Below, one piece after another: positions 56,951-58,441 of a stretch of 64,000 nucleotides of DNA (position 1 is the first letter of the stretch; every line of letters starts with the position of its first letter). A program made the translations under genes and the position numbers. The stretch is taken from the NCBI GenBank assembly GCA_004212155.1, contig RXIG01000028.1:32812-96811 (forward strand), given 5' to 3'. Below the pieces are notes generated by a model. The model was not told the origin of the DNA. It made no database searches and worked only from the letters and a program-made list of their open reading frames with translations. This DNA comes from an archaeon (GTDB lineage Archaea > Methanobacteriota_B > Thermococci > Methanofastidiosales > NM3).

Positions 56951-57043
56951 TATCGCTATAAAAAAACATAAATAATATCTTTTTATATAAATTAGTAATA
57001 TATATTATACAAATAGACAATAATAGTATACTAATAGGAAAAA

Positions 57044-57052
57044 TTTATATAT
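57044..57052 (+). promoter_or_regulatory. TATA box for the substrate-binding protein transcript
   Basis: GAAAAATTTATATAT; predicted start about 25 nt downstream coincides with the first leader hairpin. Confidence 0.5.
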
Positions 57053-57073
57053 CTGAACAGGGTAGTAGATTAT

Positions 57074-57194
57074 GGATCGACAGCGGCAGGTGAGAGAAAG
57101 CTCCCACCTCCTGTCGATTCAGAACGTACTTTAGAGGAATAGCCCCATGCTATCCGCTCTTTCAGGGGGGTCGTTCAATGATGAACGCTTCCTC
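57074..57194 (+). ncRNA. Candidate structured RNA leader / riboswitch-like element
   Basis: Hairpin GGATCGACAG (57074-57083)/CTGTCGATTC (57111-57120) with nested AGGTG/CACCT and GAG-AAAG-CTC; then GAGGAA (57134-57139)/TTCCTC (57189-57194) enclosing TAGC-CCCAT-GCTA and CGTTCA-ATGA-TGAACG; CCCC loop complementary to GGGGGG 57165-57170. Confidence 0.5.
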
Positions 57195-57235: not shown

Positions 57236-58441
57236 ATGAAAAAGAGATTTCAAGCCGTTTTTATCATCGTAGTGCTCTTTGGTATCCTGTGGTCAGGGTG
57301 CATAGGGGATGACGATGGATCGGAACCTACGGCACAACTCGTGTACATGTCAGGCTGTGGAAACATGCCGACAGCACTGAGCACGAATCAGATCGATGCC
57401 TACATCGCATGGCAACCGAATGCGGCCATCGCGGAGGTTGCTGATATAGGAAAGGTGATCACATATTCGCGCGACATGCCGCCTGAGGGCATGTGGCACA
57501 ATCACCCGTGTTGTGTCATTCATGCGCGGGAAGGGTTTATCGAGGACTACTACGACCTTGCAACATATCTCACCTCTCTCATGATCGTGGCAAGCGAGTA
57601 CGTGCAGGAGAATCCCGAAACGGCAGCTTACGACAGCGCTGAATGGATATTTGGGAACGGATCGCTCACCTTCGGTGACACGGAGGTCAGTTCGTATGAT
57701 GTGGAACTCGCATCCATTCCGACCATACAGTACACGACGGAACCGTCTGACGACTGGAAGGACGGGCTTGTGACCTTTGTCAGGTCGCTGGAAGACATCG
57801 AGATGGTGGATGGTGCCCTTAAAGGCTTGGATGAGCAAGCAATTCTGGATAAGCTGCTCCACAAAACGCTCTATGATGATGCCATAGCACTTCTCGAATC
57901 GGAGGCGTATCGGGACGCACAGGCACCATCCTCGATGCCCACTGTTAATCTTGGATACCTTGCTGCCGATGACCATGACGCCGCACTCTTTGTCGCTGCG
58001 TACGAATGGGAATACTTTCGGGACACATACGGCCTTTACTTGGAACCCATCAATCTCGGACCGCGCGGGACGTACTACCTCGTCGCGGGAGGGACGCGCG
58101 TGGCAAAGGTGAAAACGTTGGAGTTCAATGGTGGGTCTGCCCAGATGACGGCACTGAGCCAGGGCAGCGTTGATTTCGGTCTCGCTGGGGCTCCCCCCGC
58201 GATCCTCTTCATCGACAGCGAGGCCCCTGTAAAGATAATCTCTCCCCTCATGAAGGAGGGGTCTGGTGTCGTGGTCAAAACCGATGCCCCATATGACGAC
58301 TGGGACGGATTCGTGGAGTGGATCTATGAACAGCACGAGGCGGGAAAGACGGTAAAGATCGGCGTGCCGATGATCGGTGCTATACAGGATGTCATGATGA
58401 AGTTCGCCTTAAAGGAATCAGGGATTTCATACATCCTCTGA
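57236..58441 (+). CDS. Lipoprotein NMT1/THI5-type ABC substrate-binding protein with permuted lobe order
   Basis: Lipobox ILWSGC; C-lobe motifs first (GNMPTALSTNQIDAYIAWQPNAAIAEV...MWHNHPCCVIHAREGFIED), N-lobe motifs last (VNLGYLAADDHDAALFVAAYEWEYF...GSAQMTALSQGSVDFGLAGAPPAILFIDSEAPVKIISP...GAIQDVMMKFALKESGISYIL*). Confidence 0.8.
   Translation: MKKRFQAVFIIVVLFGILWSGCIGDDDGSEPTAQLVYMSGCGNMPTALSTNQIDAYIAWQPNAAIAEVADIGKVITYSRDMPPEGMWHNHPCCVIHAREGFIEDYYDLATYLTSLMIVASEYVQENPETAAYDSAEWIFGNGSLTFGDTEVSSYDVELASIPTIQYTTEPSDDWKDGLVTFVRSLEDIEMVDGALKGLDEQAILDKLLHKTLYDDAIALLESEAYRDAQAPSSMPTVNLGYLAADDHDAALFVAAYEWEYFRDTYGLYLEPINLGPRGTYYLVAGGTRVAKVKTLEFNGGSAQMTALSQGSVDFGLAGAPPAILFIDSEAPVKIISPLMKEGSGVVVKTDAPYDDWDGFVEWIYEQHEAGKTVKIGVPMIGAIQDVMMKFALKESGISYIL

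Follow-up and report, generated by a model that had tools for sequence, protein, structure and literature searches.

A probable circular permutation in an archaeal substrate-binding lipoprotein of the SsuA/NMT1_2 type

Can the two lobes of a substrate-binding protein (SBP) stand in exchanged order within one working chain? This question is raised by an intact open reading frame with an ATG start, at positions 57236-58441 on the forward strand of the window (the whole stretch of 64,000 nucleotides from a methanogenic archaeon that was analyzed), which encodes a protein of 401 amino acids. The initial annotation had read it as a C-lobe followed by an N-lobe. Taken as a whole, the data are best explained by a working lipoprotein of the SsuA/NMT1_2 type that has undergone natural circular permutation, a reading to which we assign a probability of about 0.85. 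This form is referred to below as type A, and another permuted form found in relatives as type B.

Order of the segments and position of the cut

All features given here lie on the forward strand. The chain opens with a lipoprotein signal peptide (57236-57301) ending in the lipobox W-S-G-C at amino acids 19-22, of which G21-C22 is invariant in the alignment of all six type-A proteins. By signal peptide and lipobox the protein is predicted to be exported and lipid-anchored. The stretch that follows (57332-57931) corresponds to canonical residues 160-328, approximately, and carries the second part of lobe 2, from the strand QLVYMSG onward through AL..QIDAYIAWQP and with an HPCC motif (57503-57514), and then the C-terminal part of lobe 1. 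A new linker between the former C- and N-termini, placed by the type-A and rotated alignments within the approximate limits 57899-57940 (about amino acids 222-235), leads into the N-terminal part of lobe 1 (57941-58279; VNLGYLA..DHDAALFVA...GSAQMTALSQGSVDFGLAGAPPA...GSGVVV; canonical residues 29-125, approximately). The remainder (58280-58438) leads across to lobe 2 and forms the first helix of that lobe (GKTVKIGVPMIGAIQDVMMKFALKESGISYIL), with the new C-terminus at about canonical residue 165.

This layout rests on profile matches and on alignments. PF13379 (NMT1_2) recognizes the protein with 76.2 bits (cut-off 24.7) in two stretches of swapped order, profile positions 162-249 (amino acids 42-136) preceding positions 7-148, which match the later part. 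The initial annotation had proposed to align the halves separately, and when this was done each passed the cut-off by itself, with 43 bits for positions 162-250 and 36.9 bits for positions 7-148, in reversed order, while a collinear match to the whole profile failed for this protein and for type B alike. The best NCBIfam match, SsuA_fam (TIGR01728), reaches 67.4 bits and is below the cut-off of 163.5 bits, which is not decisive because rotation splits the score. The canonical references were homologues of 330-331 amino acids from the sister family f3. In local alignments amino acids 26-217 of the window protein correspond to residues 160-328 of the reference from genome G011 and amino acids 289-397 to residues 66-163 of that from G007, while amino acids 237-399 of a paralogue in the same genome correspond to canonical residues 32-163, and the second part of one more type-A protein (G018b) extends over residues 28-165. 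Shuffle Z scores of such half-by-half alignments were about 14-24. When rotated, the window protein spans the canonical homologue of 331 amino acids from end to end, with a gapless join and no segment lost, and in an alignment of all forms rotated types A and B follow the entire canonical chain.

The swapped profile order, the rotated alignment and the six collinear relatives described below show that the exchanged lobe order is a real permutation, as was initially supposed. Both canonical segments are present in one intact frame, and simple truncation was also rightly dismissed. The cut itself is not at the lobe hinge, where it had been placed, but some 40-45 residues further on, inside lobe 2. 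In type A the chain is opened after the first lobe-2 helix (GSIQDV..LKESG) and before the next strand (QLVYMSG), which means that each terminus carries a part of lobe 2 and lobe 1 is re-joined via the new linker.

Structure models suggest how such a chain may fold. The AF2 model of the window protein, made from an alignment of the six type-A sequences only, has a pLDDT of 76.5 and a pTM of 0.77, and that of type B, made from eleven alignment rows including canonical fragments, 85.4 and 0.82. Foldseek depends on chain order. Against the PDB it ranked Bacillus subtilis OpuAC first for the window model (E 2.4e-3 over 367 columns; SsuA at rank 42, E 0.93), and all five best matches of the type-B model were OpuAC (E 1e-8 to 4e-7; SsuA at rank 15, E 4.9e-5). 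The modelling that the initial annotation had called for thus gives OpuAC as the order-dependent top match and a poor superposition on it (TM 0.26-0.40, rmsd 13-14 A). TM-scores were generally low, 0.26-0.51, beside confident lobes in the AF2 models, so the ranking speaks for the order of elements, not for accurate superposition or lobe orientation. The window protein is predicted to adopt the usual two-lobed SBP fold.

Upstream of the gene there is a putative TATA-like promoter element (AAAAATTTATATATC, 57039-57053), and similar elements precede the other type-A genes. The whole leader of about 170 bases folds better than shuffled sequences (z -3.1), but it is poorly conserved in the closest relative (G017). 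It contains a strong hairpin (57073-57121), which may be incidental. A search of the leader for riboswitches with Rfam gave zero matches.

Permuted and canonical relatives

Whole-genome searches covered the phylum (115 genomes) and were supplemented by one pattern-based contig scan. The same C-lobe-then-N-lobe order, whose occurrence elsewhere in archaea the initial annotation had wished to see checked, was found in a class-wide search in six collinear genes of four genomes: two in the window's own genome, one in G017, two in G018 and one in G015. These relatives are 53-96% identical to the window protein, that of G017 being the closest at 96%, and the second copy in the own genome is 55% identical and collinear over amino acids 4-400. 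The pattern-based scan, which reaches close relatives only, detected only three type-A loci, and no permuted forms were found in viral contigs. Between the window gene and its G017 counterpart dN/dS is 0.085 overall and practically equal in each half (0.080 and 0.082), which indicates that the gene is maintained.

In the sister family f4 (G019 and G020) an SBP of 319 amino acids is permuted at another cut point. This type-B protein starts at the crossing from lobe 1 to lobe 2 (SIDDLNGKTIAIPG) and ends in GSALVVS, which puts its cut at the lobe hinge. Its genes (L037:6719-7678 and L039:6378-7337) are the first of an SBP-permease-ATPase-marker-2-like operon. By local alignment its amino acids 30-219 correspond to residues 136-326 of the G011 protein and amino acids 232-318 to residues 35-124. 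PF13379 matches it in two stretches, the better one, profile positions 122-241, lying near the N-terminus (amino acids 31-147). Its SsuA_fam score of 149.4 bits is below the cut-off of 163.5 bits, while the canonical f3 relative scores 195.4 bits, above it. Between G019 and G020 dN/dS of type B is 0.084. Among 165 plasmid records matching the type-B protein none covers more than 80% of it, and in the matches listed the coverage runs from about amino acids 7-34 to 175-229, that is, canonical lobe 2 and the end of lobe 1, as would be expected of ordinary SBPs without the type-B order.

The family f3 keeps the canonical order, and a canonical homologue is also present in G016, which belongs to the same family as the window (f1). 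There, a distant canonical-order SBP is accompanied by a permease (L036:990-1988). A flavodoxin-like gene flanks the permuted paralogue in f1 and the canonical SBP and permease of G016 alike. Relatives of the same class (family f5, L120-L124) appear to be fusions of a helix-turn-helix-like domain, at the N-terminus, with an NMT1-like binding domain that carries a YPCC motif, and are perhaps ligand-sensing regulators.

Could the permutation be only apparent, or of mixed parentage? The own genome is available as a draft of 28 contigs, which is the reason for considering an error of assembly or binning, or a tandem duplication that was collapsed and so mimics permutation. However, six genes from four genomes, on separate contigs, share the identical order, and three of these genomes stem from three different projects. 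The reading frames are intact at a dN/dS of 0.085, and the flanks of 400 bases hold no SBP remnants. We therefore regard such an artefact as extremely improbable, and the six collinear relatives together with strong purifying selection exclude truncation, frameshift and assembly error. A chimera of a C-lobe fragment from one SBP with an N-lobe fragment from a different one is somewhat less far-fetched but still quite unlikely. Trees of the whole SBP, its halves, the permease and the ATPase did not separate the deep branching order among A, B and the canonical form, which in the case of the half trees would be compatible with a chimera. Against a chimera, the nearest non-permuted relatives of both halves are the same f3 canonical family, and the two fragments neither overlap nor leave a gap when they are put together as a single complete SBP.

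Duplication, fusion and trimming is a textbook route to circular permutation. For the permuted lipoprotein favored here, an SBP gene would most likely have been duplicated and fused in frame, and its outer parts trimmed; the lipoprotein signal peptide stands ahead of the new start. No convincing remnants of the missing halves were found in the 400-base flanks of the window gene. The chain now starts in lobe 2, runs to the end of lobe 1 and through the new linker to the start of lobe 1, and has the first lobe-2 helix as its last element, and the same two-lobed clamp is predicted to form. Either there were two permutation events, or a single duplicated precursor underwent two different trimmings. 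A single permuted clade of A and B is neither established nor rejected (AU p 0.23).

Genomic context, importer and substrate

Neither permease nor ATPase lies beside the SBP gene in the window, and the single counterparts of this gene in G017 (L035) and G018 (L032) lack them as neighbors as well. The genes next to it in the window and in G017 encode a lipoprotein with a PQQ-type beta-propeller and an ATPase of the CDC48 type. The permuted paralogue and type B, in contrast to the window copy, are encoded with both importer components, so the initial remark that these are missing from the neighborhood applies to the window gene and not to its permuted paralogue. After the paralogue, G018 and G015 have a helix-turn-helix (HTH) gene on the opposite strand and then genes for a permease, an ATPase and methanogenesis marker 2. 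The paralogue's cluster in the own genome leaves contig C9 inside the permease and resumes on C14 (L031:9370-9825 and the end of L127). At their ends the two contigs share exactly 119 bases, and the permease frame is continuous across the join. The type-B gene is directly upstream of permease, ATPase and the marker-2-like gene, while in f3 the canonical SBP gene sits between the HTH gene and the permease.

The HTH regulators possess a PrpR_N-like C-terminal part (L033:8564-9088, L034:1299-1820, L038:5804-6328). They are located between SBP and permease in f1 and upstream of the SBP in f3, which implies that the SBP gene switched sides of the regulator. Methanogenesis marker 2 (TIGR03267) is linked to the transporter in f1 and in f4 (L033:10870-11844, L037:9138-10079), the latter being without McrA.

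No second SsuC-like permease close to that of the paralogue was found in the own genome. Because the only SsuBC/SaoPA-type importer found there adjoins the paralogue, the window SBP probably shares it. Anchored in the membrane by its lipid, the protein would capture a small solute outside the membrane and hand it to this SsuBC/SaoPA-type ABC importer. What it carries is probably a small anion, either a sulfonate or one with a thiol group, for instance coenzyme M (CoM); this is a tentative guess, made because the f3 canonical relative passes the SsuA cut-off and because ssuA and ssuC of M. acetivorans have been named subunits of a CoM-specific ABC transporter (PMC12068725). The own genome encodes the CoM synthase MMP16, so import of CoM is not required. 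McrA and MMP16 are both present in three of five f1 genomes, including the window's own, and f4 has neither. Most f3 genomes have McrA and no MMP16 above the cut-off, and these genomes might therefore need external CoM.

Two departures from this picture have to be weighed, each of which we consider unlikely without being negligible. The window copy, standing like its counterparts in G017 and G018 without adjoining permease or ATPase, could have ceased to be a transporter subunit and become an orphan extracytoplasmic sensor, a scavenger or a ligand chaperone, but no receptor or kinase was recognized beside it, and it has kept intact the residues that it shares with the operon paralogue, HPCC and the lobe motifs among them. 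As for the solute, in NCBIfam the permease and ATPase beside the paralogue match SaoP (177 bits) and SaoA (254 bits) best, and the Cys-Cys motif is invariant, which would suit a metal- or organometal-related compound bound in the manner of SaoX. All of these scores are, however, below the SAO equivalog cut-offs, and it is the SsuA cut-off that the canonical relative passes.

Comparison with known systems

As far as we have searched, permutation within the SsuA/NMT1 family, permutation of such a protein in archaea, and two cut points in one order are new; no report of a permuted SBP in this family or in archaea was found in the open-access literature. We think it fairly likely that an SsuA-type SBP was permuted in two ways, by a cut at the hinge and by one in lobe 2, within one archaeal order (apparently Methanofastidiosales), and that ABC operons of similar make-up have kept both forms, a sister family having stayed canonical. 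A canonical form together with two permuted ones in a single order is rare, and lets one ask how a venus-flytrap protein tolerates relocated ends, whether the shift of the anchor from lobe 1 to lobe 2 alters docking to the permease, and which intermediate the permutation passed through. Profile tools split permuted SBPs into two partial matches, and therefore others may be annotated as fragments.

SBPs of the SsuA/TauA/NMT1_2 group (PF13379, TIGR01728) are the sequence family of both window halves, but have the canonical chain order, and the permuted proteins are not collinear with the whole profile. The SAO transporter (Sec-assisted organometallic; SaoX, SaoP, SaoA) is the system to which the permease and ATPase beside the paralogue come closest in NCBIfam, but at scores under the equivalog cut-offs, and no other SAO genes were recognized among the neighboring ORFs seen. 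Natural permutation of SBPs is known from OpuAC relative to ProX. With CPSARST, circular permutation has been reported among glycine betaine-binding proteins, and between these and the proteins that bind molybdate (PMC2395249). OpuAC of B. subtilis (PDB 2B4L/2B4M/5NXX), a type-II SBP of the permuted group and the top Foldseek match of both models, belongs to another sequence family than the window protein, which is SsuA/NMT1_2 with SsuA and TauA as relatives. Its order is most like that of type B, whereas the type-A termini are located within lobe 2, and the superposition is weak. TpMglB-2 (Tp0684) of Treponema pallidum is likewise a naturally permuted lipoprotein SBP, which binds glucose and changes conformation or closes (PMC4990184). 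It differs from the window protein in being bacterial, of type Ic and cluster Bc (type I/cluster B fold) and in having a sugar as ligand, and its permutation shifts three strands of the N lobe.
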